This document shows, one piece after another, positions 36,607 through 56,116 of a DNA stretch of 64,000 nt. A model generated the notes under the pieces. That model searched no databases. It was not told the origin of the DNA and saw nothing but the letters and a program-made list of their open reading frames with translations. Position numbers and translations under genes: made by a program. This stretch comes from an uncultured Selenomonas sp. (GTDB taxonomy: Bacteria; Bacillota; Negativicutes; Selenomonadales; Selenomonadaceae): contig CAMVGU010000013.1 in assembly GCA_947167105.1 (NCBI GenBank), positions 1-64,000 of the forward strand. Direction: 5' to 3'. Position 1 is the first letter of the stretch; each line of letters opens with the position of its first letter.

Positions 36607-36637
36607 TGTAAAATCTCCTTTAATATGAAAAGGCATA

Positions 36638-39460: not shown

Positions 39461-39464
39461 CTGC

Positions 39465-42362
39465 TCACACTCCATCATGGGCCACCAGGGCCAGCAGCAT
39501 TTCCGCCATCTCGGCCGACTGGCTCCAATGTGCCTTCATATTGCCAATATCCTTGACTTCCATAAGAAAGCCAAGCAGAAGCTTCACCATCTCTCGCTGC
39601 TCCCAATAACTCGTAAGTTCCGTCCTGAGATAGGCAAGTGCGTTCTGGGGGTTCATATCGGCCTTTACACCTGCATAAATAGCCACAAAAATCGTTCGCA
39701 GCAAGGAGTGGGCAAAATCCGGCACATCATTTAAGGCCCTCTCTGCCATTTCCACAGGAGTCTTGAGCCTGGCAGTATTTGCCCGCTCGCTGGCCAGCAG
39801 TTGGCTGTAGCCGGCGATGCCAAAGCCTCTGGCATATTCCTGATAGGTGGCTATCTTATAGTCCCCGAGCTTTTCGCTTTCCAATCCCTTCAGATAGAAT
39901 TTCTCCGCCGGACTGAGGCTGCGCCATCTCTGCCTGTCGAAGCCGTGAGGTATGATGCAGCCATAGGCAATGTCCTTGGCCTTTTCAATCACCCGGACAA
40001 TCTGGCTGCCCTTGGGGCTGGTGATGGCTTTTTCCAGCTCGTAGTCCAAATCCAGCTCATCAATGGCTGCGTAAGAGGTAAGGACTTTCAAAGAAGCGGC
40101 ATAGGCGGCCAGCACATAATCCGGGTCGGAGAAATTAGGCTCCTCCGCATTATCCAGCCGTTCCATACTGGCAATCTGATTCTCCACTTCCTCCTGGATC
40201 TCCTCATAGACTTCATTCAGGAAAGCCTCATCCGTGCCTGTACGCCTCCGCAGCACCAGGAGCACAGTGCCTTTCACATAGTTGCCGGACTTCAGCCCGC
40301 TGGCATCTGTCTCAGTGACGATATTCCAGGCGGCAGTGACGGAAAGCCCTGCCTGCCAGAGAATCAGGGCCAGCTGTGCCCAGACCGCGGGACTGGAATG
40401 GGTAAACATGACAATCTGCATACCGTCTTCCGGCATATGGTTGGCAAGATTCGTGTAGATATCCACCATCGTCCGGGCAAAGCTGTCATCCCCCCGCACC
40501 GCCAGTACACGTTTGCTGTCCGTGTAGCCCTCGGGAAAAATGGCGGGCAACAGCTTTTTATCCCAGGCCAGAAAGTATTCGGAAAGCTCATGGTAATTTA
40601 CTGCATCCGCATAAGGGGGGTCGGTAATCCAGAAGCGAGCCGAATGGTGTACCTGGCGGGCATCGCAGAGGGAAACACTTGCATTAGTACGAATCGGATT
40701 TACATACTCCCCCATACCAAACCATAATGTTGCTAAACTTTCCGACGTTCTGCTCCCCCAGTTGAACATAGTATTTAACGCCTGATTGTAATAGGTCTGC
40801 GCCAATACATCACGAGCTGAAATCCAACGACACAATTTAGAATTAAAATCCACGCAACGATTCAGCCCCAAAATCCCCGCTGCCTTAGCCGCCTGATTTC
40901 CCTCCCCTTGCACCTGCTCCGCCAGCAGGGCCAGCACCAGTAGTTGCCTGGGAGTAAAGAGCTGATGCCAGTAACGCCAGCCTCGTTCTCTTATGATTTG
41001 GTCTGTGTTGTACCCTGATTCAATGCCCATACCGGGCACCAGCCCCTCGACCTGCCACTTGGCAAAATGCGCCGCCACATAATTATGCACCGCCGCTTCA
41101 TTGCCTAAGTCCCTGGCATCCGGGGCCGTGTAATAACGCACTCTGTGCTTCTCGTCAATCTGCTTTTCATAACGGATAGCATAGAGCCTGTCCTGATAGA
41201 GATCCTCCGGGCGCGGCTCCCACTCATCCTGCTCCCACTGGCGCAAGCCGTAAATGACAGCGCCATCCTCCCCTGTGCGGTCACGGCGCAGGGCGGTTAT
41301 GGGAGTACTGCGATGGCAATGGGGGCAGATGAGCTCACTGTTTTTCACCGTGCCCGCCTCTGCTGCGTCTTTCAGCCCTGCTGTGTCCGTTTCCACAATA
41401 TCAATGTGGAATTCTCTCCCCTCCGGCCTTTCCCGCAGCACTGCCCTGACCTGCCCTGCCCTTGCTCCCACAACCAGAGAGGGCAGCAGGGGCACCTTCC
41501 AACCACATTCCGGACAGGTGGCTTCCACGCAGTAGAGGTAGGACAGGGCCTGGGCGCCATTTGCCCCCCGCTCTATGCCAAGTGCCTCTATCTGCCTTTT
41601 TACATTGTCATAGGCCCTCTGCTGAAACTTTCGCACCTGCTGCCGTGTGGCTTCATCCGCTCCCGCCAGGTGGATATCCGCCCAGGTGAGCAGCCCTGCA
41701 ATGGGATTCAGGTCGCTGGCCACCACCTCACAGCCCAACCGTGCCGCTTCAAAGGGAATGGAGCCACCCCCGGCAAAGCAGTCTCCCACCGAAAGCCTTT
41801 CCCCGTAACGCTTTTTTGACATTTCCTCTATGAATTCCTGCAGGCTCCGGGCCTTAGTGCCGCAATGGCCGTTGATCTTCTCCCAGGTTTTTTCACCTAA
41901 GTTTTCCATTTCCTCGGAACGCAGGGCACCGGCGATTTTCTCATCGTAGTTCAAAGTCTCCCAAGCCAGCCGCTCCAGCTCCTCACGCTCCCTGGGAGGC
42001 ATTTCCCTGGGCCAGCGGCTTCCCCACGCCTTATATTCCGCTTCATGGGCCTGATAGAATTCCGGTTGTTTCTCCGCCAGTATTTCCAGCACGGCTCTGC
42101 AGGAGAGGGGCTTGCGACGCTGCCACAAGCTTTCACTATCCATGCCCATCAGCCGCAGGAAAGTCTCCATATCCCCCTGCTTGTCCGAAGTAGCCGGCAG
42201 CAGGCAGCCCAAAATAGCCCCCCGCACCAAAGTCAAGGGCTTCCTGCCCCACCACTTCCCCAACCCCGTGATGGTCTGCCCCTGGGAGGACTTGCGCTCC
42301 TTATAGCATTCCTTGGATAGCTTGCTCACCGGGAATTGCTCTTCGATAAATGATTTGCTCAC
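39465..42362 (-). CDS. DUF1156 adenine-specific DNA methyltransferase (COG1743)
   Basis: 965 residues from a GTG (VSKSFIEEQFPV; GGGAGG 9 bases upstream); a longer frame adds 41 residues unlike the family. The DUF1156 start block FPVSKLSKECYKERKS and TGLGKWWGRKPL precede the SAM site DCFAGGGSIPFEAARLG (194-210) and the N6-adenine catalytic motif DPPY near 580 (ITDPPYADAVNYHELSE). Two zinc ribbons, CPECGW near 282 and CPHCHR near 345, sit between. The family includes, as I recall, PglXI of type 3 BREX. It should mark host DNA. No pglZ or brx genes are present. Lies 16 bases after the antitoxin gene. Confidence 0.93.
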   Translation of the reverse strand: MSKSFIEEQFPVSKLSKECYKERKSSQGQTITGLGKWWGRKPLTLVRGAILGCLLPATSDKQGDMETFLRLMGMDSESLWQRRKPLSCRAVLEILAEKQPEFYQAHEAEYKAWGSRWPREMPPREREELERLAWETLNYDEKIAGALRSEEMENLGEKTWEKINGHCGTKARSLQEFIEEMSKKRYGERLSVGDCFAGGGSIPFEAARLGCEVVASDLNPIAGLLTWADIHLAGADEATRQQVRKFQQRAYDNVKRQIEALGIERGANGAQALSYLYCVEATCPECGWKVPLLPSLVVGARAGQVRAVLRERPEGREFHIDIVETDTAGLKDAAEAGTVKNSELICPHCHRSTPITALRRDRTGEDGAVIYGLRQWEQDEWEPRPEDLYQDRLYAIRYEKQIDEKHRVRYYTAPDARDLGNEAAVHNYVAAHFAKWQVEGLVPGMGIESGYNTDQIIRERGWRYWHQLFTPRQLLVLALLAEQVQGEGNQAAKAAGILGLNRCVDFNSKLCRWISARDVLAQTYYNQALNTMFNWGSRTSESLATLWFGMGEYVNPIRTNASVSLCDARQVHHSARFWITDPPYADAVNYHELSEYFLAWDKKLLPAIFPEGYTDSKRVLAVRGDDSFARTMVDIYTNLANHMPEDGMQIVMFTHSSPAVWAQLALILWQAGLSVTAAWNIVTETDASGLKSGNYVKGTVLLVLRRRTGTDEAFLNEVYEEIQEEVENQIASMERLDNAEEPNFSDPDYVLAAYAASLKVLTSYAAIDELDLDYELEKAITSPKGSQIVRVIEKAKDIAYGCIIPHGFDRQRWRSLSPAEKFYLKGLESEKLGDYKIATYQEYARGFGIAGYSQLLASERANTARLKTPVEMAERALNDVPDFAHSLLRTIFVAIYAGVKADMNPQNALAYLRTELTSYWEQREMVKLLLGFLMEVKDIGNMKAHWSQSAEMAEMLLALVAHDGV

Positions 42363-42378
42363 TTGGCACTGCCTCCCT

Positions 42379-42669
42379 TTAAGTACCGACTTTTTTGGGA
42401 GTAAAGGATATATTGAGCACCATCCCCATACCATCGGCAAGCCTTTGCAGCAACCTGATGGAGGGATTTCTGGAGCCGTTTTCAATGCGGCTTATTTCCG
42501 TCTGGGCAATGCCTGTTCGCTCAGCCAGTTCCTTCTGAGTAAGGTTATTGGAAGTTCTGGCATCAATGATGGCACGAATAATATTGAATTCCGGCTGCAT
42601 TTCCTCGTATGCCTTGGCAAATTCAGGGTCACGCATACACTCACCCTTAAACTGTTGCAGACTTTTCAT
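42379..42669 (-). CDS. XRE-family antitoxin (HigA-like)
   Basis: 96 residues from MKSLQQFKGECM; a GTG three codons earlier is the alternative start. Helix-turn-helix LTQKELAERTGIAQTEISRIENG (about residues 44-66), flanked N-terminally by a segment matching HigA partners of Gp49-type toxins. Its start overlaps the toxin gene by 23 bases. Expected to bind the toxin and repress the pair's promoter. Confidence 0.88.
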   Translation of the reverse strand: MKSLQQFKGECMRDPEFAKAYEEMQPEFNIIRAIIDARTSNNLTQKELAERTGIAQTEISRIENGSRNPSIRLLQRLADGMGMVLNISFTPKKVGT

Positions 42670-43021
42670 TTTCCTCACGCTTTCTACGAATATAGTCCTC
42701 TCGGCGACTTTTAGCTATTCTGATTTCTTCCAGCGGTGTTTTTTGTGTCTTTTTGATAAAGCAATTGGTGATGATGATCTTTCCTTCAATGCAAAAGAAA
42801 AATAATGCTCGTGTCAGATTGTTACCAAGTTTACAACGCAGTTCAAATATACCATCAACCAAATGCTTGGTATACGGTTCACGCAGGGACGTTCCCTTAT
42901 CCTCTAACACTTCCATCAGGCTGACCAGCTTGGCTCGCATTTTACTGTCTAACCCTAAAAGAAAATCCTCAACCGGTGTTTTCCCGTCAGCAGTTTCGTA
43001 AAATTCAACTTCAAAATTCAT
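42647..43021 (-). CDS. Type II toxin, HigB/Gp49-like (RelE fold)
   Basis: 124 residues from MNFEVEFYETADGKTPV (GAGG 9 bases upstream). Hallmarks of the phage Gp49/DUF891 group: EDFLLGLDSKMRAKL, GIFELRCKLGNNLTRALFFF and KKTQKTPLEEI. Such toxins cleave mRNA at the ribosome. The toxin-before-antitoxin order is typical of HigBA. The module interrupts the defence cassette between DUF3780 and the methylase. Confidence 0.9.
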   Translation of the reverse strand: MNFEVEFYETADGKTPVEDFLLGLDSKMRAKLVSLMEVLEDKGTSLREPYTKHLVDGIFELRCKLGNNLTRALFFFCIEGKIIITNCFIKKTQKTPLEEIRIAKSRREDYIRRKREENEKSATV

Positions 43022-43089
43022 TTACATCTACCTCAACAATATTATATGAAATATATCTCATATTGTCAAAAGTAATCGTCAGTTGATTC

Positions 43090-43345
43090 CTACAATATAA
43101 AACATCCCAGCCTTCCCCTCTACTCCCACCACCGCTTCGCGGTCCCCCGCCCCCAATGGGGGCGGACTTTTGCAGCGCTGCGCAGAAGACAACGGTAATC
43201 CCGCGCCCAGGGATGGGCGCTGCCGCCCTCGTTCTCCAAGGAAGGGAACAAGGGCGGCGGTTTTCTTTGGTTAATTTCTTTGTCCACACAAAGAAAGTAA
43301 CACCACGAGCCATGCCCGCTAGCGAAAAAAGCCCTCCTCAAGGGA
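43090..43345. repeat. Non-coding dispersed structured repeat
   Basis: A series of palindromes in the 335-base gap before the toxin: ACCGCTTCGCGGT; GCCCCCAATGGGGGC; CCGCCCTCGTTC (43222-43233) with its near complement ending at 43260; and TTTCTTTGT (43275-43283) with ACAAAGAAA (43288-43296). Base usage differs sharply from the genes, and the minus-strand reading (VTFFVWTKKLTKENRR) matches a repeat often mis-annotated as a gene. I consider it an inserted element, not coding. Confidence 0.6.
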
Positions 43346-43356
43346 AGGCTTTTTCT

Positions 43357-43911
43357 TTAACGAGTATAAGTCGTTTCTGTGAGTTCCAGCCCCACAGCCT
43401 GGGGCTCGTCCACAGGATTTTCACAGAGAATATAGCGCAGAGCCATGCGCCAGCCCTTTCTGTCCCCCAGTTTCCCGGAGGCAGCATTGGTCATGGTATA
43501 GAGCCACCAGCGTTCCTCCGGCAGGAACCCCTGCCAGTTACGGATAGCTCTGGGGATACCGGCGGATTCATTGTATTCGATGCCCCACAGCAGCACCAGA
43601 AGCTCCTTGCCAAGCTGCCGCTCCAGGGCAGTCCCCCCCGTGGCAAATTTGCCCACGGGCTTTTTGGCTTCCTTCAAGCGGCGATTGAACTCTGCCGTCA
43701 CATCTTTCTGCACCGCCTCCCATTTGCGGCGGGGGACCCTCAGCTTCAATATGTCTCCGGCCTCCAAGGGTTGCTCGGTGTCCGGTGCCTCGGCCCAGCC
43801 AAAGCGTTCATAGACCTCCACAGGCTCCTTACGGTCTTTGGGCTTCACTATATAGAAATGGTTGCTCGTTTCCACGGGATTATATCCAAAGCCGGCGTAG
43901 CCCTTTTTCAT
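43357..43911 (-). CDS. DUF3780 protein of the defence cassette
   Basis: 184 residues, MKKGYAGFGYNPVETSNHFYIV at the start. The family has no known activity; it occurs with DUF499 ATPases and DUF1156 methylases. Visible features are an aromatic, Trp-rich centre (LVLLWGIEYNESAGIPRAIRNWQGFLPEERWWLYTMTNAASG) and no Cys pairs or membrane segments. Overlaps the DUF499 gene by 4 bases (ATGA), so the two are co-translated and probably interact. Confidence 0.88.
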   Translation of the reverse strand: MKKGYAGFGYNPVETSNHFYIVKPKDRKEPVEVYERFGWAEAPDTEQPLEAGDILKLRVPRRKWEAVQKDVTAEFNRRLKEAKKPVGKFATGGTALERQLGKELLVLLWGIEYNESAGIPRAIRNWQGFLPEERWWLYTMTNAASGKLGDRKGWRMALRYILCENPVDEPQAVGLELTETTYTR

Positions 43912-46900
43912 TGCTCGATATCTCCTTCGTGTCCCAGCTTCGATAAGTCAAATTTCCTGCGGGCAGCCCATTCCTTAAACTTGGCACCGCTCTTAAAAAG
44001 TAAGCGCTTGTACTCCAGGGTCACTTCTGATTCCAGATTTTGCCTGCGGAAGCTGCGCTCGCGCACGAAATCAATAATCTCCTGCATATTCTTGGGAGCA
44101 TATACTGCATTAGTTGTCAAATCAACGTAGCTGCGCCCGTTGCTTTTATCACTGATAACCGCAGTGACATCCTGCAAAGATACCTCTCCCAGCGCTGCTA
44201 GTTCCTCCAGCTCCTTGTAGACAGCAGAAGTGTCAGAAAGATTCTTCTTTGACCTATAGACAAAGGTTAAGGCTCTCTCTTCATCAATTTCATGCGCTGC
44301 TGATCGTCCCCCATGTTCTATGGAAATAGACTTGTTGTCTATTATCTCCCCATTATACAGGGCCACCACCCGCACATAGCGGCAGTCCTCGGGCACATGG
44401 ATATCCTGGCCGTCATAGAGGCTGCCGTTTTCCCTTGGCTCACTGCCGTCTGTTGTGTAATACACATCATAGTGCTCATTGACAGAAAGGGTCACCACCC
44501 TGCCCTCCGGAGTGAGCCTGTCCCCATACTTGATGGGTGCATGGCAGATATGCTCCACCACAGGGCCTGCCTCTCGCCTGCCCGTGGGGTCAATGCAGAG
44601 GAAGCGCAGGCATGGCTCCCTGCTGGTCATTATATTCCCCTGCACCTCATGGGAGGCCGTGGTGGGGTCAGCACCTATGTCATAGTAGACTGTGCCCCCC
44701 ACACCATGCACCCGCAGGGTAAAGACTTGCGTCTCACAGTCATAACTCACATCCTCCACCTGCACTTCTGTAGGCTCTAGCTGGAAAGGACCTTTCTGCA
44801 AGTACCCCCCTGTCTCCCGCCATACATCCTTCTTCAACGCATCCTGCCTGAGTGCCTCCATCTGGTCAGGATGATACCATTCCCAAGAAGGCATGGTGGC
44901 AGCACGATCAAGAATCTGCGACCACTGCATTTCCTTCTGGGTAAAGAGGCGCTGCTCGCACTTCCGCACCAGGGTGGAGAGAAAAGCATCCTCCCTGGAA
45001 AAATCGCTGTACTTGTGGTTTTCCTTCAGGCAGTTTATGATTTGCTCCTCGCCGTCAAAGTGATTATCCTTGAATTCCAGCTTGAAATCGGCACTGCGGA
45101 TTCTGTAATTTTCATTGCGACCTATAGGATAATACAGAGTAACAAAAGTCTCGCGAATGGTAGAAAAAAGGTTCTGTATTGCCTTGTCCAGATGAGCCTC
45201 CGCCTCTATATACTGCTGGTCGCGCTCAGAGAGATGCTCTGCCTTCATTTTTTCCACAATGCTCTGAATAGCCTTCAGGCGCTTGCTGTTTTCATAGAGT
45301 TTCTCCATCATATCCCGTTCCCCTGACAGGAACATCACGCGGTTCTTGTATGAAGTCTCCTCGTAAAAAGCCTGCAAATCAGGATGCAGTTCCCTGCCGG
45401 GGTGGGGTTCAAAAATCACCAGACTGATATCCTCCCGGCTAAGAGCTATTTCATCCACCGCAGGGAATACAAAGACCTTCTGATAGCAGCTTTTCAGGCC
45501 TGGCTTGAAATTTTCGGCAAGGATTTTCCTTAATTCTTTGCGGGCATTTTCCGGGGTGTAGGACTGCATCAAAGTATTCATCTCAGCTACCATATTTTTG
45601 GTATCCTGATAGTAGATAAGGCCCCGGTTATCCGTCTTGATATACCAGCAGTCGCTTTTGAGCCTGCCTATGACTTCCTGGACGATGTTGAAATCAACCC
45701 CAGGCTCCGCCGCAAAGCCGCAAGCATCATTTTCCGTCAGTCCCAGTGTACCCTGCATGGCAGTAGAGAGGGAGGAAAACAGGAGCATGCGGGCCATGCG
45801 TCCTGCGTAATCCTTGCCATCACCGCGCTCCGCGTCCACAGCCTCTGCCACCGAGCGCCCCTGTTGGGCAATATCATGGCTGACGGCATTCTCCAGTGAC
45901 GGCTTGATGCTCCTGACCATGGAGAAAAGGCGTTCCTGATTCAAGTCAATGTCATAAACATGAATCAGGCTTTTCTGCTCTGCCATACCGCTCTCGTAGA
46001 ACCGACGCACAATCTGACGCATCAGCTTCAAAAGTCCCCTGGTTTGCCGGACACTGGTATTTTCCTTAAAACGGGCATAAAGCTCCTTCAAACCGGGATG
46101 AAAGGGATAGGAATCCGTCACTCCCTGATAAACAGCCGCCTCGGAATAGTTGGTGATGCCCAGCTTGCGAGCCTTGCCCACCGCCTCCTTATAGGCAATG
46201 GCAATCTCATTCTTATCCTGAGCATAATTATTTGAAATAGGCTCGTTTTCAAATAAGCGCACCCGCATGATGTCGTATACTTCATCGGAATTGTGCTTGA
46301 CCGGCTGCACATCCCTGGCCTGTCGCTCCACTTCGGATTTCAGATCATCCAACTGAGAGAATGCCTGCTGCACCATCTGACTGCCCACTTCGTAGGCTGC
46401 ATCCAGATCAGACAGCACCACGCAAACCTGGGAGAGTTCCTTCCTGCCCAAGGCACTGAACAGATTGGAAAGTGCTCTGGTGGTTACCACTGCCAAATCC
46501 GCATTGCCGATTTTTTCCGTACGGGCATAGTCCAGATAGGGGGGCAACTCATCCAAAAGCAGCAGGACTTTCTGCCCCTTTAAGAGGTTCACCCAGGCAT
46601 TTTCCCCCGGTGCTTTCATCTGCTTGTTATATTCCCTGAACAGCTCCCCCTGCCCCAACTGCTCGGAAATACTGCCCCAAATGCCATACTCGTAGTTCTC
46701 CCGACCGGAAATTGTCACCACCTTGATTTCCCCTAAATCCACATATTCCCGGTTCAGCATGCTCTTCCTGAGTTCTGCATGCTGTGCCAAAAGTCCTGTG
46801 GCTATCATGCAATGGGTCTTGCCGCCTCCCATGGCCTGGGTAAGCTTCACCAGCCCCGTATCTGATTTGCCGGCAAACCTTGCAAACACGATATCCAGAA

Positions 46901-47054
46901 GCATCCTCATGCCTTGAGTCATGTAGTTTTCCCTAAAAAAAGCTTCTGCATCCACCTTTCCCTCAGCAAAATCTGTCAAGTTCAGTACATCCTCCTGCGC
47001 TGTATCTGCAAATACAGATTCACGCGGTTTCAGCATCATGGCTAGTGGCTTCAT
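43908..47054 (-). CDS. DUF499 AAA+ ATPase of the defence cassette
   Basis: 1048 residues, GGAG 8 bases before MKPLAMMLKPRES. Walker A LTQAMGGGKTHCMI (71-84), Walker B KVLLLLDELPPYLDYA (about 162-177), then a long helical region. Unusual: near 770-830 and 835-905 are two beta-domain segments, VYYDIGADPTTAS and VYYTTDGSEPRENGSLYDG, the second being the CHB_HEX_C-like YTTDGSxP motif. DUF499 proteins are predicted cassette ATPases, comparable in role to BrxC/PglY. First gene of the cassette, 48 bases after addA with no terminator between. Confidence 0.92.
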   Translation of the reverse strand: MKPLAMMLKPRESVFADTAQEDVLNLTDFAEGKVDAEAFFRENYMTQGMRMLLDIVFARFAGKSDTGLVKLTQAMGGGKTHCMIATGLLAQHAELRKSMLNREYVDLGEIKVVTISGRENYEYGIWGSISEQLGQGELFREYNKQMKAPGENAWVNLLKGQKVLLLLDELPPYLDYARTEKIGNADLAVVTTRALSNLFSALGRKELSQVCVVLSDLDAAYEVGSQMVQQAFSQLDDLKSEVERQARDVQPVKHNSDEVYDIMRVRLFENEPISNNYAQDKNEIAIAYKEAVGKARKLGITNYSEAAVYQGVTDSYPFHPGLKELYARFKENTSVRQTRGLLKLMRQIVRRFYESGMAEQKSLIHVYDIDLNQERLFSMVRSIKPSLENAVSHDIAQQGRSVAEAVDAERGDGKDYAGRMARMLLFSSLSTAMQGTLGLTENDACGFAAEPGVDFNIVQEVIGRLKSDCWYIKTDNRGLIYYQDTKNMVAEMNTLMQSYTPENARKELRKILAENFKPGLKSCYQKVFVFPAVDEIALSREDISLVIFEPHPGRELHPDLQAFYEETSYKNRVMFLSGERDMMEKLYENSKRLKAIQSIVEKMKAEHLSERDQQYIEAEAHLDKAIQNLFSTIRETFVTLYYPIGRNENYRIRSADFKLEFKDNHFDGEEQIINCLKENHKYSDFSREDAFLSTLVRKCEQRLFTQKEMQWSQILDRAATMPSWEWYHPDQMEALRQDALKKDVWRETGGYLQKGPFQLEPTEVQVEDVSYDCETQVFTLRVHGVGGTVYYDIGADPTTASHEVQGNIMTSREPCLRFLCIDPTGRREAGPVVEHICHAPIKYGDRLTPEGRVVTLSVNEHYDVYYTTDGSEPRENGSLYDGQDIHVPEDCRYVRVVALYNGEIIDNKSISIEHGGRSAAHEIDEERALTFVYRSKKNLSDTSAVYKELEELAALGEVSLQDVTAVISDKSNGRSYVDLTTNAVYAPKNMQEIIDFVRERSFRRQNLESEVTLEYKRLLFKSGAKFKEWAARRKFDLSKLGHEGDIEQ

Positions 47055-47102: not shown

Positions 47103-50100
47103 TTATGTCATCGCCACCGCTTTGCCGCTGCGCAAGAGGTAGAGATAGCATTCATCCAGCGGTCGCTGCCAGATGGCACTAATGGCTTCGCTGTAGAGCA
47201 TGATCTGCACACGATAGCGCTCCCTGGCATGTTCTGGGTTGGGGTCGCGGTCTGTCTTATAGTCCAGCAGCACCAGATGGCCCTCCCTGTCCTCGAATAC
47301 CACATCAACAATGCCCTGCACAAAGACCGTGGCGGCCTCATCCTGCACCTGACTGTAAAAGCGCCTGGCCGGCAGCAGGCGGCTGAAAGGCAGTTCCCTG
47401 TAGACACGGCGGGCTTCCCTCAGCCTTTGGCCCAGAGGAGATTGCAGGAAAGCTGCGATACGTCCCACATCTACATATGGAGCCTGGCTATCCTGCAGTA
47501 GCCCCCGCTCCTGCATATTCTTCAGTTGCCGCTTCACAGCAGCCAGGCTGGGCTGACAGGAAAAATCCAGATGCTGCATTACTAAGTGCAGCAGGGTGCC
47601 ACGCTCTGTTGCGGTCAACCCCTGGGGCCCTTCTGCCTGCTCCTGCAGGAAGCGGGGGCGTCGCCAGGCCGCTGTCTCCTCCTGGGGCAGTCCCGGCTCT
47701 AAGAGTTGCGGTTCCTCCGGCACCAGCCCGTCCAATGCCTCGGCTGCCGTGAACATCTGCTTGATTTCCGTGACGGAGAGCTTCGCCGGAACCTGGGCAA
47801 GGCCCCGCTCCTCATAGTGCCAGCCCAGCACCTCCTGCACCTCTCCCGCCCTGTCAGTACCGGGGAGAGGCTGCATCTTCTGCACTGCCAGCAAAATGGG
47901 GTCATCGGCTGCGCTGCGCAGTTCCTGCACCGCCACGGCGGAGCCTGGCACAAGCTGAACGGCCAGCTCAGCCCCTATCTCCAGCTCCAGCCCCCAATCC
48001 AGGTATTTCTCCGGCAGCTGCGCCAGCTCGCGCAGGCAGCGACCGCCAGTATGCCTTGCTGCCGCAGGCGCCAGCCAATCCAGGAATGTATTGGCACCGG
48101 CCAGGCTTTCCACCCTGAGCTGCGGCGCGCTTTCCCCCACCTGGGCGCACCATTTCTGTGCCTGCACAGCAGCTTTCTCCCTGTCCCCGCTGACGCTGCC
48201 CACCAAAATGAGCTTCTCCCTGGCCCTGGTCATGGCAACATAGAGCACACGCAATTCCTCGGCCTTGGCCTCTGCAATCAGCCGTCGGGAAACGAGCTGC
48301 CAGGGCAAGGTCTGATAGCGCTGCCTGCCCGCCGCACTGCGGGAAACCAGTTGCGGCCCGATGCCCAGCTCCTGATGCAGCAGGAAGGTGCCCCTGGCAT
48401 CGGTCAGGTTGAATTTCTTGCCCAGGTCAGCCATAATGACCACCGGGAATTCCAGTCCCTTGCTCTTATGCACGCTCATGATGCGCACAACATTCTCGCT
48501 GGCCCCCAGAGTACGGGCCACGGAAAGATCTGTCTCCCGCTTCTTCAATTCTTCGATAAAACGCAAGAAGCGGAACAGCCCCCGGTAATTCGTCTGCTCG
48601 TATTCTGCTGCCCGATCTGCCAGCATGCGCAGATTCGCTTGCCGAAGGAGCCCTCCCCGCAGGCTGCCCACATAATCGTAGTAGCCTGTATCGCGGTAAA
48701 GTTTCCAGATGAGCTCCGGCACGCTGTGGCTGACTGCAAAAGAGCGCCACTCTGCCAGCTTCTGCTGGAACCCGGCAGCCTTGTGCCTGAGCCCCGGCGC
48801 AAGCTGCGAGTCCAGTTCCTGGGCACTGAGCAAGGCTGTGTAGAGATCTTCCTTTTCCGCCACCAGGCGCAAGGTGCCCAGCTCCGTCATGGTAAAGCCC
48901 CCCAGGGGCGAGGCCAGCACCGCTGCCAGGGGGATATCCTGGCGGGCATTGTCCACCACCGCCAAGAGATCCAGCACCAGCCTGACCTCATGTGCCTCGA
49001 AATAGCCGCCGCTGACATCCGCATAGGCGGGGATGCTGCTGCGCCGCAGGACTTCCAGCAGGATATCCGCCTTGCCCGTAACTGCACGCAGCAGCACCGC
49101 AATATCCCGGAAGGCAATGGGTCTGTATTCCCCCCCCACAAACACCATATACCCTGCCTCAATAAGAGCTGCAATACGCCCGGCGATATGCTGGGCTTCC
49201 AGTTCAAAGCCTTTCAGTTCCCCGGCAGCGCTCTCTGCGTCCTCCCCTGTTTCTGCGGCACTATTTTCTCCGGACAGGATGATATCCAGTTCCACAGGGC
49301 CTGCCAGGGTTCGTGTGCCCGCAGGCGGCTCCGGGTAAGCCGCGCCGGGATAGAGCTTGCTCTGGTCATCATAGTCGATTTCCATGGGCTCCTTGCGCAT
49401 AAGCTGATCAAAAAAGAAATTGACCGGCGAGAGCACCTCCGCCCGACTGCGGAAATTCTGCCTCATGGTAATCAACTGATTCTCATCCCCCCGCCCCGGC
49501 TCCAGGGGAAAGGATTCATACTGCCTCTGGAACAAATGTGGATTCGCCAAACGGAAACGGTAGATGCTCTGCTTGACATCACCGACGACGAAGCGGCTGC
49601 GAGGCGGCGCAACCAGCGCGAGGATGGCCTCCTGCACGCTGTTCGTATCCTGGTACTCGTCCACCATGACTTCCTTGAATTTATGCTGCAGCTCCAATGC
49701 CACCTCGCTGGGCTGATAGCTGTCCTGCTTCAAGCCTGCGGAATCAGCCCCATCAGGTGTGCGCCTCAATATCTGCAACGCATAGTGCTCCAGATCGTCG
49801 AAGTCCAGCACACGCCGCTCCTGCTTGGCTGCGCGGAAAGCCTGGCAAAAATCCAGCGTCAGCTGCGTATAGCGGCGCACCGTAGGCGCGCACTCTGCCA
49901 GCTCCCCCAAAAGTTCTTCCTCACCCAACTGAAAATATCGCTCCTGCAAATTCTTGACCTTCTCCTTGACAGCATCCCGTCGCTGTTCAAAGCCTGTGCG
50001 CAGGGCAGGATATTTTTCCTTCAAGGGCTTGAACTTGTTACCCCGCAGGGCAGGCACCCGGAAGGCCCCACAAGCCTGACGCAGCGTTTCCCAATCCCTG

Positions 50101-50981
50101 CCTGCCAGCAGGAACGGGTCCAGGGATTCATGGAGGCCCGCCGCCACTTCCAGGTAAGGTGCCAGGCAATTTTCCAGCTCGGCACGGTAAAAAACATCCC
50201 CGGCCTCCTGGTAAGCACCTGCAATCAGCCATGTGTCCAGGGCTTCTGCCTCCCGTGCCAGTCCGCTGCGGGCCTGCTCCAACTGCTGCCAGAGTTCCCG
50301 CCCCCAGGAAGTTTCCCACAGCCCTGCCTCCCCCCGGAAATTGCTTGCCTGCCGCAGCAGCCAGGCTTCCGGCTCCGGCTGGCTCCGGCTGAATTCATAG
50401 AGCTGCAGCACAGCCCCGCAGACAGCCTCGTCTCCCTTGTCATTGCCATAATCATCCACAAAGGCCAGGAAATCCAGCCAGTCAGCCCTGGCCGCATTAT
50501 ATTCATCCTCATCGGCAAAATTTTCCCGCTCCGGCTCCCGATAATGCTCCTCCAGTAAATCCTCCAGTACATCACGCTTCAGAAGCGCCATTTCCTGCTC
50601 ACCGGCCAGGCGGAACTGGGGATCTGCATCCACCAGCTCGATATGCTGGCGAATGAGGCGCTGGCAGAATACATGGAAGGTGCTGATATGTGCGCCCGTG
50701 AGCAGCACCAGTTGACGATCCAGGCGGCGCGCCTTGCCAGCCTCCCCTGCCTCCGCCAGCTCCCTGCGCAGTTCCTTCTCAATGCGCTCGCGCATCTCCA
50801 TTGCCGCCGCATTCGTAAAGGTCACCACCAGCAGCTCGTCCACATTGCATTCCCCGGCCAGCAGGCGCTGCACTATGCGATCCACCAGCACCCGGGTCTT
50901 GCCGGAACCGGCTGCGGCAGCCACAAGTATATTATGTCCCCGTGCCGAGATGGCTTTTTTTTGGTCCTCTGTGTATTCCAC
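47103..50981 (-). CDS. addA: ATP-dependent helicase/nuclease AddA
   Basis: Helicase-nuclease subunit of AddAB, the RecBCD counterpart that resects double-strand ends and degrades phage DNA. 1292 residues from GTG (MEYTEDQKKAISARG; GAGG in front lies within a 19-base repeat). UvrD-type motifs: VAAAAGSGKTRVLV, MVDEYQDTN, SVHKSKGLEFPVV, VAMTRAREKLIL; C-terminal RecB-type nuclease with VQGIVDVVFEDREGHLVLLDYKTDRD. An ATPase gene separates it from addB. Confidence 0.97.
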   Translation of the reverse strand: MEYTEDQKKAISARGHNILVAAAAGSGKTRVLVDRIVQRLLAGECNVDELLVVTFTNAAAMEMRERIEKELRRELAEAGEAGKARRLDRQLVLLTGAHISTFHVFCQRLIRQHIELVDADPQFRLAGEQEMALLKRDVLEDLLEEHYREPERENFADEDEYNAARADWLDFLAFVDDYGNDKGDEAVCGAVLQLYEFSRSQPEPEAWLLRQASNFRGEAGLWETSWGRELWQQLEQARSGLAREAEALDTWLIAGAYQEAGDVFYRAELENCLAPYLEVAAGLHESLDPFLLAGRDWETLRQACGAFRVPALRGNKFKPLKEKYPALRTGFEQRRDAVKEKVKNLQERYFQLGEEELLGELAECAPTVRRYTQLTLDFCQAFRAAKQERRVLDFDDLEHYALQILRRTPDGADSAGLKQDSYQPSEVALELQHKFKEVMVDEYQDTNSVQEAILALVAPPRSRFVVGDVKQSIYRFRLANPHLFQRQYESFPLEPGRGDENQLITMRQNFRSRAEVLSPVNFFFDQLMRKEPMEIDYDDQSKLYPGAAYPEPPAGTRTLAGPVELDIILSGENSAAETGEDAESAAGELKGFELEAQHIAGRIAALIEAGYMVFVGGEYRPIAFRDIAVLLRAVTGKADILLEVLRRSSIPAYADVSGGYFEAHEVRLVLDLLAVVDNARQDIPLAAVLASPLGGFTMTELGTLRLVAEKEDLYTALLSAQELDSQLAPGLRHKAAGFQQKLAEWRSFAVSHSVPELIWKLYRDTGYYDYVGSLRGGLLRQANLRMLADRAAEYEQTNYRGLFRFLRFIEELKKRETDLSVARTLGASENVVRIMSVHKSKGLEFPVVIMADLGKKFNLTDARGTFLLHQELGIGPQLVSRSAAGRQRYQTLPWQLVSRRLIAEAKAEELRVLYVAMTRAREKLILVGSVSGDREKAAVQAQKWCAQVGESAPQLRVESLAGANTFLDWLAPAAARHTGGRCLRELAQLPEKYLDWGLELEIGAELAVQLVPGSAVAVQELRSAADDPILLAVQKMQPLPGTDRAGEVQEVLGWHYEERGLAQVPAKLSVTEIKQMFTAAEALDGLVPEEPQLLEPGLPQEETAAWRRPRFLQEQAEGPQGLTATERGTLLHLVMQHLDFSCQPSLAAVKRQLKNMQERGLLQDSQAPYVDVGRIAAFLQSPLGQRLREARRVYRELPFSRLLPARRFYSQVQDEAATVFVQGIVDVVFEDREGHLVLLDYKTDRDPNPEHARERYRVQIMLYSEAISAIWQRPLDECYLYLLRSGKAVAMT

Positions 50982-50999
50982 GCTGCCTCAGCCTTTCTT
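50981..50999. repeat. 19-bp direct repeat, left copy (addA start)
   Basis: CGCTGCCTCAGCCTTTCTT is identical to 52452-52470. On the minus strand it encodes the end of AddB (..KKG stop) followed by the addA ribosome site. With a few mismatches the likeness extends to about 28 bases or more on the far side. Marks the junction duplicated when the DUF4143 gene entered. Confidence 0.85.
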
Positions 51000-51032
51000 T
51001 TCCTTGACACTACTCTACCTTCCTGCTCCACA

Positions 51033-52289
51033 TTACCAATCCAGGCTATCCTGATTATGCAGGAAATCAAACAGGCCTATCGTCAGAATGCCATACTCGC
51101 TATGAAAAGGTTTGATAACATCCTTCACTATGATGATTTTCTTAAAAGCATCTTTGGCAGCCAAAAGCGAAGCCTGCTCCTGCCTGACTTTTTCCTCATC
51201 CGGCAGGCTATAAGCGGATTGGATATAATAGCGTTTGCTGCCCAGGTTAGCCACAAAGTCAATTTCCAAATGTTTGGTTAGTTTGCTGCCCGAGACTTTA
51301 TCTATATACCTTTGCCTGACGCTTCCCACATCCACATTGTAGCCGCGCATCCGCAACTCATTGTAAAGTATGTTCTCCATCAGGTGGGGCTCCTCAATCT
51401 GTCGAAAATCCAGCCTGGCATTTCGCAGCCCCACATCTTCAAAATAGTATTTCAGAGGGCTGCCTATATACTTGCGCCCCTTGACATCATACCGATTGGC
51501 CGCAGCAATGATAAATGCTTCTTTCAGATAGCCAATATACTTGTTTATCGTGTTGTCACTGATAGATGAGTGCAATCTGCTCTTGAATGTTGCTTCTATC
51601 TTGGCCGGATTGGTCAGGGAACCAACAGAAGATGCCAGGACATTCAGCAAATCTTCCAGCTCTTGAGGCTTCTCTATCGAATTTCGCTCCACTATATCCT
51701 TCAGGTAAGTCTCACGAACCAGATTGATAAGGTATTTAGACTTCTGTTCGTCCGTCTTCATGGCAACAGTCAGAGGCAGGCCACCATACGTCATGTATTC
51801 TGCCCAGCCATGATAGTCATCCCCGTCATATACCTCCATAAATTCACCAAAGGACAGGGGGAATATGTGAACCTCATCCCCCCGGCCACGGAACTCTGTC
51901 AGTACATCAGTTGACAAGAACTTTGAATTGCTGCCGGTTGCGTACACGTCAAGATTCGTCTCACGCAAAAGGGAATTCAGCACTTCTTCAAAATCCCTGA
52001 GCATCTGAACTTCATCAAGCAGGATGTAATAGCTGCCATCGTCTTTGATATTGGCTGTCAAATACTCCATCAGCACCTCGGGCTCCCTGTAACGCCGGTT
52101 TTGCAGGCGATCAAACTCCATAACAATGATATGATCATCCTGAATCCCTGAATCCCGCAGATATTGACGAAATATGTTCAGCAGCAGAAAAGACTTGCCG
52201 CTTCGCCTTATACCCGTTACTACCTTTATCAAGCCATTGTGCATACGGTCTATGAGCCTTTGCAGATACTGGTTTCTGTGTATGTACAT
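51033..52289 (-). CDS. AAA_14 / DUF4143 ATPase
   Basis: 418 residues, MYIHRNQYLQRLIDRM start with AGGGGG upstream. N-terminal AAA_14 domain: Walker A TGIRRSGKSFLLLNI, Walker B YYILLDEVQML, sensor VYATGSNSKFLS; C-terminal DUF4143 domain with ENILYNELRMRGYNVDVG and HLEIDFVAN (a nuclease-like ExxxD...K pattern). Widespread in Bacteria and Archaea, often single accessory genes of unknown role. It is wedged between addB and addA, AT-richer than both, and carries its own upstream palindromes. Confidence 0.92.
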   Translation of the reverse strand: MYIHRNQYLQRLIDRMHNGLIKVVTGIRRSGKSFLLLNIFRQYLRDSGIQDDHIIVMEFDRLQNRRYREPEVLMEYLTANIKDDGSYYILLDEVQMLRDFEEVLNSLLRETNLDVYATGSNSKFLSTDVLTEFRGRGDEVHIFPLSFGEFMEVYDGDDYHGWAEYMTYGGLPLTVAMKTDEQKSKYLINLVRETYLKDIVERNSIEKPQELEDLLNVLASSVGSLTNPAKIEATFKSRLHSSISDNTINKYIGYLKEAFIIAAANRYDVKGRKYIGSPLKYYFEDVGLRNARLDFRQIEEPHLMENILYNELRMRGYNVDVGSVRQRYIDKVSGSKLTKHLEIDFVANLGSKRYYIQSAYSLPDEEKVRQEQASLLAAKDAFKKIIIVKDVIKPFHSEYGILTIGLFDFLHNQDSLDW

Positions 52290-52301
52290 AAATGCCCCCT
52301 T

Positions 52302-52337
52302 GTAAAGAAAAGCTGTCCTTGGACATGTTTTCTTTAC
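52302..52337. promoter_or_regulatory. 36-bp palindromic operator-like site, proximal
   Basis: Arms GTAAAGAAAA (52302-52311) and TTTTCTTTAC (52328-52337) are perfect complements; the core TGTCCTTGGACA is itself palindromic. Only two positions on each side do not pair. It begins 12 bases before the ATPase start codon. Confidence 0.7.
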
Positions 52338-52374
52338 TATTGTAACATAAAAGTTCCTTGCAAAAGCAATAATT

Positions 52375-52410
52375 GTAAAATAAAGCTGTCCTTGGACGTG
52401 TTCTTTTTAC
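52375..52410. promoter_or_regulatory. 36-bp palindromic operator-like site, distal
   Basis: Same length and core (GCTGTCCTTGGAC) as the proximal site, arms GTAAAATAAA and TTCTTTTTAC. Start-to-start distance is 73 bases, close to seven helical turns. A minus-strand -10-like TACAAT lies between the two. Confidence 0.65.
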
Positions 52411-52451
52411 AAGGTTCGCTTCTGGATACGACCTGAAGGGTGAGCTGGGAC

Positions 52452-52470
52452 CGCTGCCTCAGCCTTTCTT
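52452..52470. repeat. 19-bp direct repeat, right copy (addB end)
   Basis: Identical to 50981-50999; here it overlaps the true 3' end and stop codon of addB (52459-52461). Confidence 0.85.
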
Positions 52471-55400
52471 CTGCTTGATTGCACTTATCAAATCTTCCCT
52501 GCCCGTACAGGCCGCCATTTGCTCCTCTATTTCCAGTTCCCCGGCTGCCTCCAGGTCGTTGTAGCTGTATCCCGGCAACTGCGGGTCAAAGCCGCAGACA
52601 TCGGCGTACAGGCAATAGGCGCAGGGGCCTGGCTTGCCCTGCTGCCGCGCGGGATGCGCTGCAATCTCCCCTGCCAGGATGCGGCTGCCAGTATCCTGCA
52701 GGATAAAGCCCACGTAGTCCAGCAGCAGCTCGAACTCCTCCGGCTCCTTCACGCTGTCCTTCGGCACAAAGCTTACGCTTTCCTCCCCCGTCTGCTTATC
52801 CGTCTGCAGTTTGGCCTTCGGCATGACGAACCTGCCTTCTGCTCCCCGTTCCAGGGCTCTGATGATTTCCGGGTCGGCAACGACCCAGCCCGGCAGGCGC
52901 AGTTCCTTTTCAACTTTCCCGGCCAGCTCCTCCTCAGTGAGCCGTGAGCCTGCCTTGATGAGAGGATTCTTTAAAAAGGCATAGAGCATGCCCGCAGGCA
53001 GCCTGGCCTCGCCCTGCTGCTTTAAGAGCTCCCTGGCGACCAGCATATAGGCCAGCAGTTGCAGCCTGAGACCGTGGTAGACCTCGAAGATATTTACCGC
53101 CGCCTGACCTGTCTTGTAATCCACCACCAGATAGTAGGGGGCATCTGTCTGCACATCAATACGGTCAATCTGCCCCTTAAAGGACAGTGAAAAACCACCT
53201 TTCAGCGGCAGGGGCTTCAAGTGTACGGCATCCCCCCTGGCGCCGAAGTGCTCCTCGAAGAAGGCTGGGCGGAAACGGGACAGTTCCGCCCAGGCCGTCA
53301 GATGCTCAATGGCACGCAGGGCCGTCATCTGCAGGCGCTCCCGCAAGTGGCGGTAGCCGCCCCGGCTGAGCAGAATCTCACTTTGCAACCGGGGCGAAAT
53401 CTTTTCAATCAGTCCGGCACATATTTCCCTGCGCTTATCCTCCGGCACCGCTGCCCACTCATTACCGTAATCGGTCTTCACCATCTGCCCGTATTCCCGC
53501 AGCACTTCATGCAGCAGCTGGCCTAAGTCCGGCGAGCGGAAATGGTACTCCCGCCGCTCCCGCAGTTTCAGCCCGTGGGAGGCAAAATGGGCAAAGGGGC
53601 AGTTGCGGAACTGCTCAAACTGGGTGACGCTGCCTCTGAGCATGCGTCCCTGCAGGAACAGCCTCCTGGCCAGCTCCGGCGGCAGTTTTTCACTGCCTGC
53701 CTTCGCAAACAGGCCGGAAAGGGACAGCTTCAAAGCATCCCGCAGGCTTTCCTCCCCCAGGGCCCAGTTATACACATTCTGCCAAAAAGGCTGCATCCTG
53801 CCTTCTTCCTTCTGTCCCCGCAGGGCATTCACCAGGCCGGACAGAGCCGGCAAAGGTGCCGCGAGGACGAGATTATCCTTGCGCGTCAATGTCTCCAGCG
53901 GTATGGACAAGGGTTCCGCCTGGGGAAAAATGGAGCGCAGGCGGCTGACAAGGGCTGCCGGCTGCAAAGCCGCCCCTGCACTGTCTGCCAGTGCCCAGGA
54001 GACCCACAGGTACTCACTGGCCTCGTTGAAGCCCCGGTAGAGCAGGAACCTTTCACCGAAGGATCTGTCCTGCCCGCCCCTGGAAATCTCATAACCGCTG
54101 CCGTCACCCAACTTTGCCAGAGTCTCTGCGATATGCATCCTGTCCGCATCCGTCAGCAGGCCCTGCTCATGCACATGGCGGGGCATGCTGCCGGCATTGG
54201 CGCCCAGGATGTAGAGGCCCCGCATACCCGCCAGGCTGTTCTGGTCAAAGGGCGCAATGGTCACGTAATCCAGGCCAGGCGGTATCAGGGATACCTGCAG
54301 GGCATCAAGCCCTGTAGCCAGCACCTCGCTGTAATCCCTCAGGCTCATCTCCTCCCCGCCGCTGATCTCCACCAACTGGTCAAAGAGAGCCATGCAACTG
54401 GCCCAGATTTGCCTGTGTTCCGCTGCATCTGCCAGGCGCCCCTCCCGCTCTGCCGTCTCCTCCAGTTCCGCCAGGCGCTCAGGCACCCCCAGGCCCACCA
54501 GGTAATCATACAGGGCCTCTGTCAGGCCGCGTACCGTCTTTGCCTGCCTCACCGCTTCATCGAGCCTTGCCAGGGGCTCCGCCGCCTGGCGCCGCAGGCC
54601 GTCGATTTCCCTCAGACGCTCTTCCTGGGCCTCGTCCCTCTGCTCATCTGCAGCCAGGGAGTAGCGCCTGTGCCAGCGCCAGGGCTCCTTCTGAGTCCAG
54701 CGGCTGCGCCCCCGGATGCCGAATTCCAGCACATAGTTCTCCAGCTTGTCCACATCCTCGCGCACACAGGGAAAGAATCCCGTACGCAGTGCGCGCAACA
54801 TGGTTTCGTAGCGCCAGCCTCGTCCCCTGTCCTGCACTGCTTCCAGTGACGAGCGCAGAAGCTCCGCCAGGGGATGGTGGATGCTGGGCCGCTTGCCGTC
54901 ATAGAAATAGGGTATGCCGTAATCCTGAAAGACCAGGCGCAAAAGGCCCCCGTATGCCTCATCATCACGCACGAGCACGCCCATCTCCTGCCAGCGCCAG
55001 CCGGAACGGGCCAGGCGCAGGATGTCGGAGGCCACGCACTCCACCTCCAGACGCCGATTCGCGGCCTCTGTCAGCCGCAGTCCTGCCTCTCCGCCCCATG
55101 GCACAGGCGGCTTATAGGAAAAAAGCTGCTCCTCCAGGGCAGCAAGGGAGGGCTGGCCTGCGGTGCGCCGATTCTGCTCCAGGAGCTGCACGGCAGCCTC
55201 TCCCCGCCCCCCCAGCTTGTGCCACAACTGCTCCAAAGCGATTTTAGTTCTCAGGGAACGGTTGAACAGGCCGGCCTCCTCTGTATTCTCCGGCAGTTGC
55301 AGATTGACACCGTTGCCTGTACGCTCTCCTGCCAGGGGCAGGACGATATGCACAGCCGTTGCACTCTTAAGCAACGCCCCCAGGACCCTGAGCTCCTGGG

Positions 55401-56037
55401 GGTTGAAGAAGATGAAGCCATCCACCCAGATCTCGGCCCCCTGCAGGAATTCTGCCTCCGGTATGCGCCGGGCCAAAAGCTCCATCATATCCTCGGAGTC
55501 ATTCACCCGGCCTGCCATCTCCCCCTGGAAATCCTCGGCTAAAAGGGCCAGTTCCGAGAGCTTGCCGGACAGACGCCCCTTGCCCAGGGACTTAGCCGCG
55601 CAGCGCAGGATCTCCGGTGTCAGCCGGTAGCTTTTCGTCTCCTTGATGATATCTGCCAGGCTTTCGGTAAAGCCTCTCTGCCGGGCCGCACGAGCAAAAA
55701 CTGTCAGCTCCCCCGCCCTGGCACGGCGGTTCAGTATCTTGCGCAACAGCAGCTGCCGTCCCACCTCGCTGATGCGCGGTAGCCCCTCGCCTCCTGTCTC
55801 CAGCAGCACCTGCCGGGCAAAGCGGCGAAAACCGAAGACGTAAGCGCGCATAAAGCCGCCCCCCGGCGCTGCAGCAGCCAGTTCCCTTTCTGCCTTGTAT
55901 GTCTCATGCTCAGGCAAAAGCAGCACCAGGGCCTTGCCTGCCGGTGCTTCCCCCAGTCGGGTGCAGATGGCTTCGCGGCAGGCCATGCTCTTGCCCGTCC
56001 CTGCCCGCCCGACAATGAAATTCAGTGCAGCTGTCAT
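52459..56037 (-). CDS. addB: ATP-dependent helicase/nuclease AddB
   Basis: Second subunit of AddAB; recognises Chi and carries a second RecB-family nuclease. 1192 residues from MTAALNFIVGRAG (GGGGGG 8 bases upstream). Walker A GRAGTGKSMACRE at the N-terminus, nuclease core YYLVVDYKTGQAAVN near 1000, and the iron-sulfur cysteines in GKPGPCAYCLYADVCGFD near the C-terminus, with the partner Cys in EQFRNCPFAHFASHG near 800. First gene of the long minus-strand series. Confidence 0.97.
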   Translation of the reverse strand: MTAALNFIVGRAGTGKSMACREAICTRLGEAPAGKALVLLLPEHETYKAERELAAAAPGGGFMRAYVFGFRRFARQVLLETGGEGLPRISEVGRQLLLRKILNRRARAGELTVFARAARQRGFTESLADIIKETKSYRLTPEILRCAAKSLGKGRLSGKLSELALLAEDFQGEMAGRVNDSEDMMELLARRIPEAEFLQGAEIWVDGFIFFNPQELRVLGALLKSATAVHIVLPLAGERTGNGVNLQLPENTEEAGLFNRSLRTKIALEQLWHKLGGRGEAAVQLLEQNRRTAGQPSLAALEEQLFSYKPPVPWGGEAGLRLTEAANRRLEVECVASDILRLARSGWRWQEMGVLVRDDEAYGGLLRLVFQDYGIPYFYDGKRPSIHHPLAELLRSSLEAVQDRGRGWRYETMLRALRTGFFPCVREDVDKLENYVLEFGIRGRSRWTQKEPWRWHRRYSLAADEQRDEAQEERLREIDGLRRQAAEPLARLDEAVRQAKTVRGLTEALYDYLVGLGVPERLAELEETAEREGRLADAAEHRQIWASCMALFDQLVEISGGEEMSLRDYSEVLATGLDALQVSLIPPGLDYVTIAPFDQNSLAGMRGLYILGANAGSMPRHVHEQGLLTDADRMHIAETLAKLGDGSGYEISRGGQDRSFGERFLLYRGFNEASEYLWVSWALADSAGAALQPAALVSRLRSIFPQAEPLSIPLETLTRKDNLVLAAPLPALSGLVNALRGQKEEGRMQPFWQNVYNWALGEESLRDALKLSLSGLFAKAGSEKLPPELARRLFLQGRMLRGSVTQFEQFRNCPFAHFASHGLKLRERREYHFRSPDLGQLLHEVLREYGQMVKTDYGNEWAAVPEDKRREICAGLIEKISPRLQSEILLSRGGYRHLRERLQMTALRAIEHLTAWAELSRFRPAFFEEHFGARGDAVHLKPLPLKGGFSLSFKGQIDRIDVQTDAPYYLVVDYKTGQAAVNIFEVYHGLRLQLLAYMLVARELLKQQGEARLPAGMLYAFLKNPLIKAGSRLTEEELAGKVEKELRLPGWVVADPEIIRALERGAEGRFVMPKAKLQTDKQTGEESVSFVPKDSVKEPEEFELLLDYVGFILQDTGSRILAGEIAAHPARQQGKPGPCAYCLYADVCGFDPQLPGYSYNDLEAAGELEIEEQMAACTGREDLISAIKQKKG

Positions 56038-56052
56038 TTCCCGGCCCCCCGA

Positions 56053-56088
56053 TAAAAAAGAACTGCTGCACACATGTATGTGCAGCAG
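56053..56088 (-). terminator. Terminator between the PaaK-like gene and addB
   Basis: CTGCTGCACA pairs with TGTGCAGCAG, followed by TTCTTTTTT on the minus strand. It separates addB from the upstream gene, so addB needs its own promoter in the short gap. Confidence 0.85.
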
Positions 56089-56116
56089 CCCCACAAATCA
56101 ACATTTTAACATTTTC

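Follow-up and report, generated by a model that had tools for sequence, protein, structure and literature searches.

A putative single-gene mobile unit of the AAA_14/DUF4143 ATPase family, flanked by a duplicated junction, between addB and addA of a Selenomonas lineage

The window analysed here, the 64,000 nucleotides at positions 1 to 64,000 of contig CAMVGU010000013.1 from an uncultured Selenomonas sp. (assembly GCA_947167105.1), carries the two subunits of a helicase-nuclease, addB (52459..56094) and addA (47103..50981), with the gene of a 418-residue ATPase (51033..52289) lodged between them; these and all further features of the junction lie on the minus strand. The C-terminal end of addB and the GTG start codon of addA are both intact, and the GC content of the insert is 45%, against 60-61% for addA and addB. 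Beside addA, PADLOC marks a candidate defence cluster at 35383-47054 (a DUF499 ATPase, a DUF1156 methyltransferase, a PLD-helicase and a HEC-01-like ATPase), so that addAB and the inserted ATPase gene lie next to a defence island.

The ATPase gene is enclosed by a direct repeat. A stretch of 27 bp at 50981-51007 recurs at 52452-52478 with 25 of 27 ungapped positions identical (93%), including a 19-bp identical core, and gapped alignment lengthens the two copies to 46 bp (50981-51026) and 51 bp (52452-52502), respectively. The first-pass annotation had described this 19-bp identity on both sides of the gene, with a longer match once mismatches were allowed, and had placed the whole at 50981-52470; these coordinates are off by some 30 bp at most, the copy on the addB side reaching 52502. 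The junction flanks align locally with a score of 25.5, compared with a mean of 13.0 (sd 1.9) and a maximum of 22.5 among 1000 dinucleotide shuffles, and the 27-bp repeat has no third copy in its own genome, where the next best match is a chance-level 17-mer. The addB-proximal copy holds the 3′ end of addB (...SAIKQKKG*), and with it the KQKKG* terminus, plus GAGGCAGCG, whilst the addA-proximal copy comprises a decayed addB end, an intact ribosome site that retains AAAGGCTGAGGCAGC ahead of the start codon, and the first base of the addA GTG. Joining both flanks in silico yields a normal junction with the addA ribosome site. The same annotation rightly observed that the gene start on one side and the gene end on the other were spared, and that the mismatches sit on that side of the addA-proximal copy which corresponds to addB coding sequence. 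That the KQKKG tail could be a remnant of an overlapping addA start was also considered and dropped, the p value ranging from 0.0015 to 0.77 with the relative used.

The nearest named relatives of the window are Selenomonas, and none of the other 39 addB-addA junctions that we compared (29 loci from family genomes and 10 from a collection of named species; about five are second copies of a contig or sequence already in the set, leaving approximately 34 distinct) contains the ATPase; in each of them addB directly abuts or overlaps addA. In five genomes of the same genus, addB overlaps or abuts the addA start with nothing in between, the overlap reading GATGCAATACACTGA. Since the ATPase is missing from every one of these junctions, it has split addB from addA in the lineage of the window and, judged by these sequences, it entered the junction within that lineage. 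The earlier claim that the gene separated addB from addA and left their junction double is borne out in this respect, and its proposed counter-evidence, i.e. relatives with the ATPase in place or empty sites lacking a single junction, did not overturn it when sought. The junctions are free of the ATPase, but the exact pre-insertion sequence is absent among the 39, the same-genus ones overlapping and lacking the KQKKG tail.

Where does the second addB end come from? The first-pass annotation held that it had been carried in with the insert. This proposal is unneeded, as drift in a copy freed from coding already predicts the mismatches: the left copy no longer had to code for addB and retained just the ribosome site of addA, and relaxed selection accounts for the pattern. 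A more general form of the idea is that incoming DNA brought the 3′ end of an upstream gene together with the ATPase and recombined there, leaving the native end downstream. The doubled sequences found across the family are indeed gene 3′ ends and terminators, as this would have it, and at a phage locus described below (L324) the two terminase ends differ synonymously, with changes clustered in the last eight codons; such an origin is possible at other members, as the sequences of L324 illustrate. For the window we consider it unlikely: an addB end with the KQKKG tail occurs in no relative, so that none of those examined offers a possible donor, the mismatches sit in the copy that no longer codes, and no integrase is present.

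The ATPase matches two Pfam families within one protein, AAA_14 (110.4 bits, cut-off 27) and DUF4143 (68.2 bits, cut-off 28.1), and the PADLOC model PDC-S01 over residues 2-413 (E 1.4e-114, 381 bits); it has no NCBIfam match and no sequence match in the PDB. A structure predicted from 42 sequences reached a pLDDT of 93, and its residues 1-297 match the archaeal ATPases PABY2304 (2qen) and SSO1545 (2fna) at Z 17-18 and 18% identity, followed by NLR/STAND and Orc/Cdc6 proteins. These matches point to an AAA+ domain plus a winged helix, a core shared with both archaeal proteins, in a fold comparison that barely covered the C-terminal domain. Across an alignment of 99 relatives, the invariant positions are the Walker A glycine and lysine, D92-E93, E342, D344, F345 and Q357, to which E305 and E311 can be added within rounding. 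We take the last third of the protein to be a PD-(D/E)XK-like domain, partly from the clan in which we place DUF4143 and partly from its E-D-Q pattern. The assignment also draws on the description of PDC-S01 in PMC12988326. The acidic residues E305, E311, E342 and D344 are (near-)invariant as expected of such a domain, but Gln357 stands at the usual position of the catalytic lysine, and cleavage is uncertain on account of this replacement. The protein is also a candidate anti-phage factor.

Upstream of the ATPase gene lie two palindromes with one core in common (GTCCAAGGAC). P2 (GTAAAGAAAACATGTCCAAGGACAGCTTTTCTTTAC, 52302..52337) is found right downstream of a -10-like TACAAT and 13-48 bp before the ATG, and P1 (GTAAAAAGAACACGTCCAAGGACAGCTTTATTTTAC, 52375..52410) lies 73 bp further upstream, start to start. 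The unit that we infer to have been inserted runs from P1 through the promoter, P2 and the ATPase reading frame to just beyond its stop (51027..52451), its 5′ edge falling somewhere between P1 and the addB-proximal copy. In the nearest clade, a clear palindrome pair (score of at least 17) precedes 9 of 11 members, with L040 and L050 weak, and in 7 of the 11 the two palindromes lie 73-76 bp apart. Paired palindromes agree within a locus and differ among loci, scoring 21.9 within against 8.8 between (sd 2.6). Over the whole family set, 60% of members have a strong upstream inverted repeat and 27% an internal repeat, compared with 12-18% and 4-7% of ordinary genes.

Several variations on this arrangement were encountered. 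Three members on viral contigs (L290, L291, L294) and L070 have a further copy of their locus-specific palindrome 1-33 nt past the ATPase stop, and there the palindrome may also mark the unit ends. L126 (G013:C4), as well as L124, has no simple pair and instead an upstream iteron-like array of about 5-6 copies of a motif resembling GTTATAACTGATAAAA, with a period of ~40 bp. At L190 (G034:C3), a probable rRNA operon is followed by two different DUF4143 ATPases in tandem, both of which have a palindrome pair of their own. Lastly, a third occurrence of the window palindrome, a 20-nt exact match to its core and one flank, lies within a polysaccharide-deacetylase-like gene (YMSKDSF; L442, G000:C11:87694-87710), and is probably due to chance.

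Relatives of the ATPase are held by 124 of 189 family genomes, and the closest orthologues occupy unrelated sites. Orthologues at 50-81% identity sit at such positions in other family genomes. Where close pairs have unlike flanks (L124/L126 at 95% DNA identity, L148/L149 at 94%, L116/L127 at 93% and L050/L052 at 91%), their common DNA extends from 87 to 190 nt before the start to between 13 nt before and 16 nt past the stop. The limits of these pairs, all above 90% identity, define the unit as running from the upstream palindromes to the stop codon; older pairs were left out of the count of edges because drift alone would be expected to end homology at the stop codon. In L116/L127 the common stretch also takes in an upstream terminator, and a search with the upstream flank of L116 met sequence dispersed in the genus and no clean empty site. 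The recent pairs L124/L126 and L148/L149 have no flank duplication. Beside a tmRNA-like sequence (identified by eye), L251 (G141:C46) has a terminator and promoter-palindrome of the L050/L052 type without an ATPase reading frame, perhaps a remnant left after loss of the gene.

Two further settings were set aside as evidence for movement. In Prevotella nigrescens (L273/L272), two Eco57I-type methylase genes enclose a DUF4143 ATPase next to an Mpi-type invertase, and a 2630-bp circular record from another strain comprises the ATPase together with a specificity gene; this record resembled an excised circle, but, given the strain with the methylase genes, it is better explained by the action of the invertase. 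On Acinetobacter plasmids (L276, L278, L279, L282, L283), a distant DUF4143 ATPase adjoins BREX-type genes (WYL, DUF1819, DUF1788); such relatives occur on 175 Acinetobacter plasmid records, and this member is mostly fixed next to BREX genes.

How general is the doubling? The two flanks of a locus reach a score of at least 22 in 19 of 106 members, compared with 0.4% of swapped flanks. Among controls, all of them ordinary genes, the count was 0 of 65 at 800-1800 nt and 1 of 157 at all sizes (Fisher p 6e-5 and 1.5e-7, respectively). Once ambiguous cases are dropped, about 9 of 106 remain clean, with p ~0.012 against 0/65, a figure that is approximate since the cases were chosen by eye. The clean cases are L039 (the window), L046, L050, L056, L060, L087, L116 and L120, with L042 just under the cut at 19.5, and in most of them the second copy begins 0-35 nt past the ATPase stop. 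Within a narrow span around the gene, flank repeats occurred in 11 of 150 against 0.17 expected, and in an independent set of viral contigs 10 of 50 reach the score against 1.2% of swapped flanks, some low-complexity cases being among them. Most family members have no detectable flank duplication.

A number of candidates were discarded along the way. L052 has a doubled terminator that also occurs without the gene in G141 and G137, G141 having the promoter without a reading frame, and the repeat of L132 lies within a repeat-rich region. On inspection by eye, L062/L063/L065, L070, L075, L076, L093, L138 and L149 were ambiguous, whether through dispersed promoter-like repeats, through copies of the palindrome or through copies distant from the gene. 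At L322, the second copy of a near-exact ~160 bp repeat stops at the contig end, and an assembly effect is possible.

One could argue that flanks look alike simply because unrelated terminators and short gene ends resemble one another, and several of the repeats do include a terminator hairpin. Yet swapped flanks, shuffles and ordinary genes all fall short of the scores seen, and the repeats at addB and at the phage terminase consist of coding sequence, which makes this explanation very improbable. In the terminase case (L324), the terminase gene has remained whole, and 118 bp from its 3′ end recur immediately past the ATPase stop, starting at the very next base. No such repeat occurs at 78 related terminase loci without the ATPase, some of which have little downstream sequence, nor at two other terminase loci with it; the relatives are too distant to tell which copy is native. 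At L046 a terminator is doubled (91% over 44 bp), and the adjacent segment, probably an rRNA operon, is conserved and partly multi-copy in 14 of 14 genus genomes.

The interval between glpF and glpK (gene names assigned by eye) holds one terminator in the sister genomes G170, G171 and G173, and two, around the ATPase, in G175/G176, i.e. a repeat at the insert and a single copy in the empty sites; either of the two copies could be the native one. In the window, the counterpart is the set of 39 ATPase-free junctions, in none of which the tail sequence is matched. At the same interval, G172 (L245/L246) has a different insert, with the end of a HicB-like antitoxin, flanked by an identical copy of the terminator. 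The duplication is thus not peculiar to the ATPase family, as it stands here beside another type of gene.

This last case fits the view that the ATPase is an ordinary horizontally acquired gene, perhaps a defence gene, placed by generic illegitimate repair, with the duplication a by-product of break repair that any gene may show. The recent copies without duplication, the cluster of DUF499, DUF1156 methylase, PLD-helicase and HEC-01 genes beside addAB, and the Acinetobacter copies next to BREX are all in keeping with it. On the other hand, one minimal unit, from palindromes to stop codon, recurs at many sites, and ordinary genes, the one class used as control, have no such flank repeats. We regard passive acquisition as possible, though rather less than probable.

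We consider it reasonably probable that the insert represents a mobile unit of one gene, belonging to the AAA_14/DUF4143 (COG1373-like, PDC-S01) family. Insertion with duplication is well supported and movement as a minimal unit is likely, whilst it is a hypothesis that the protein itself drives this movement; the presence of relatives at many unrelated sites, some with doubling, suggests spread of the family in the form of a minimal mobile gene. We posit that a unit made up of a promoter with paired palindromes and a single ATPase-nuclease gene, up to the stop codon of the latter, would have entered the addB-addA junction of this lineage. Under target duplication, the junction before insertion would have read ...AAAGGCTGAGGCAGC|GTGGAATACACAG, once; entry would have doubled some 46-51 bp, sparing the addB end as well as the ribosome site and start of addA, and the copy no longer coding for addB would have drifted afterwards. 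The AAA+ and winged-helix part could bind its own palindromes, which are placed around the promoter at a distance of 73-76 bp, or about seven helical turns, and the bound ATPase could repress its own gene by looping. The duplication may stem from repair of a staggered or one-ended break in the target, possibly cut by the PD-(D/E)XK-like domain of the protein, and it is by this break-repair route that the unit would spread. The boldest version, in which DUF4143 ATPases (PDC-S01) are autonomous one-gene mobile elements whose AAA+ nuclease recognises the paired palindromes, cuts close to terminators and the ends of genes, and integrates its gene while duplicating a long and variable stretch of the target, seems doubtful to us, with little more than an outside chance of being right. 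If it were true, it would account for the commonness of a supposed defence gene.

This matters for the standing of PDC-S01, which PMC12988326 describes as the fourth most common prokaryotic defence candidate, an ATPase fused to a PD-(D/E)XK domain, and which according to PMC13356809 outnumbers every other single locus in rumen genomes; in both it is an abundant, unvalidated single-gene candidate. Palindrome pairs, target duplications and single-gene mobility, as seen or proposed for the window family, go unmentioned in the available portions of these accounts (PMC12988326, PMC13356809). The literature on DUF4143 and COG1373, subscription papers and preprints lying outside its scope, offered nothing on mobility, and the novelty of single-gene mobility for PDC-S01 is provisional. 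Should the ATPase genes prove to spread by themselves, each with an operator pair of its own, the abundance of PDC-S01 need not reflect defence, and nature would have provided a very small system for inserting single genes. This can be tested directly through the palindromes, the invariant residues and the target duplications.

How does the unit compare with known mobile elements? We found neither a transposase nor inverted repeats that span the unit, and no circular form for which the ATPase would be responsible. In place of what a DDE insertion sequence would have, the sole gene is the ATPase, and the inverted repeats are local upstream palindromes, none of which spans the unit ends. The likeness to Tn7-like systems lies in the pairing of an AAA+ protein (TnsC) with a nuclease-like fold (the PD-(D/E)XK protein TnsA), as in the window protein, and TnsC chains are among its structural matches (8fcu_Q at Z 12.0; 9g0f_B). 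Unlike Tn7, the window unit is a single gene between repeats, with no separate TnsB-type transposase and no Tn7-type ends. Tn7 duplicates 5 bp of its target, whereas the duplications in this family are variable and span ~27-160 bp. At 1.4 kb, with one gene, an ATPase, and no tyrosine or serine integrase, the unit also departs from integrase-driven elements such as the gene-restoring islands of tRNA type; it has no common attachment core, and its target differs at each locus. What it does share with these islands is the outcome at the target, an intact upstream 3′ end with a second copy past the insert.
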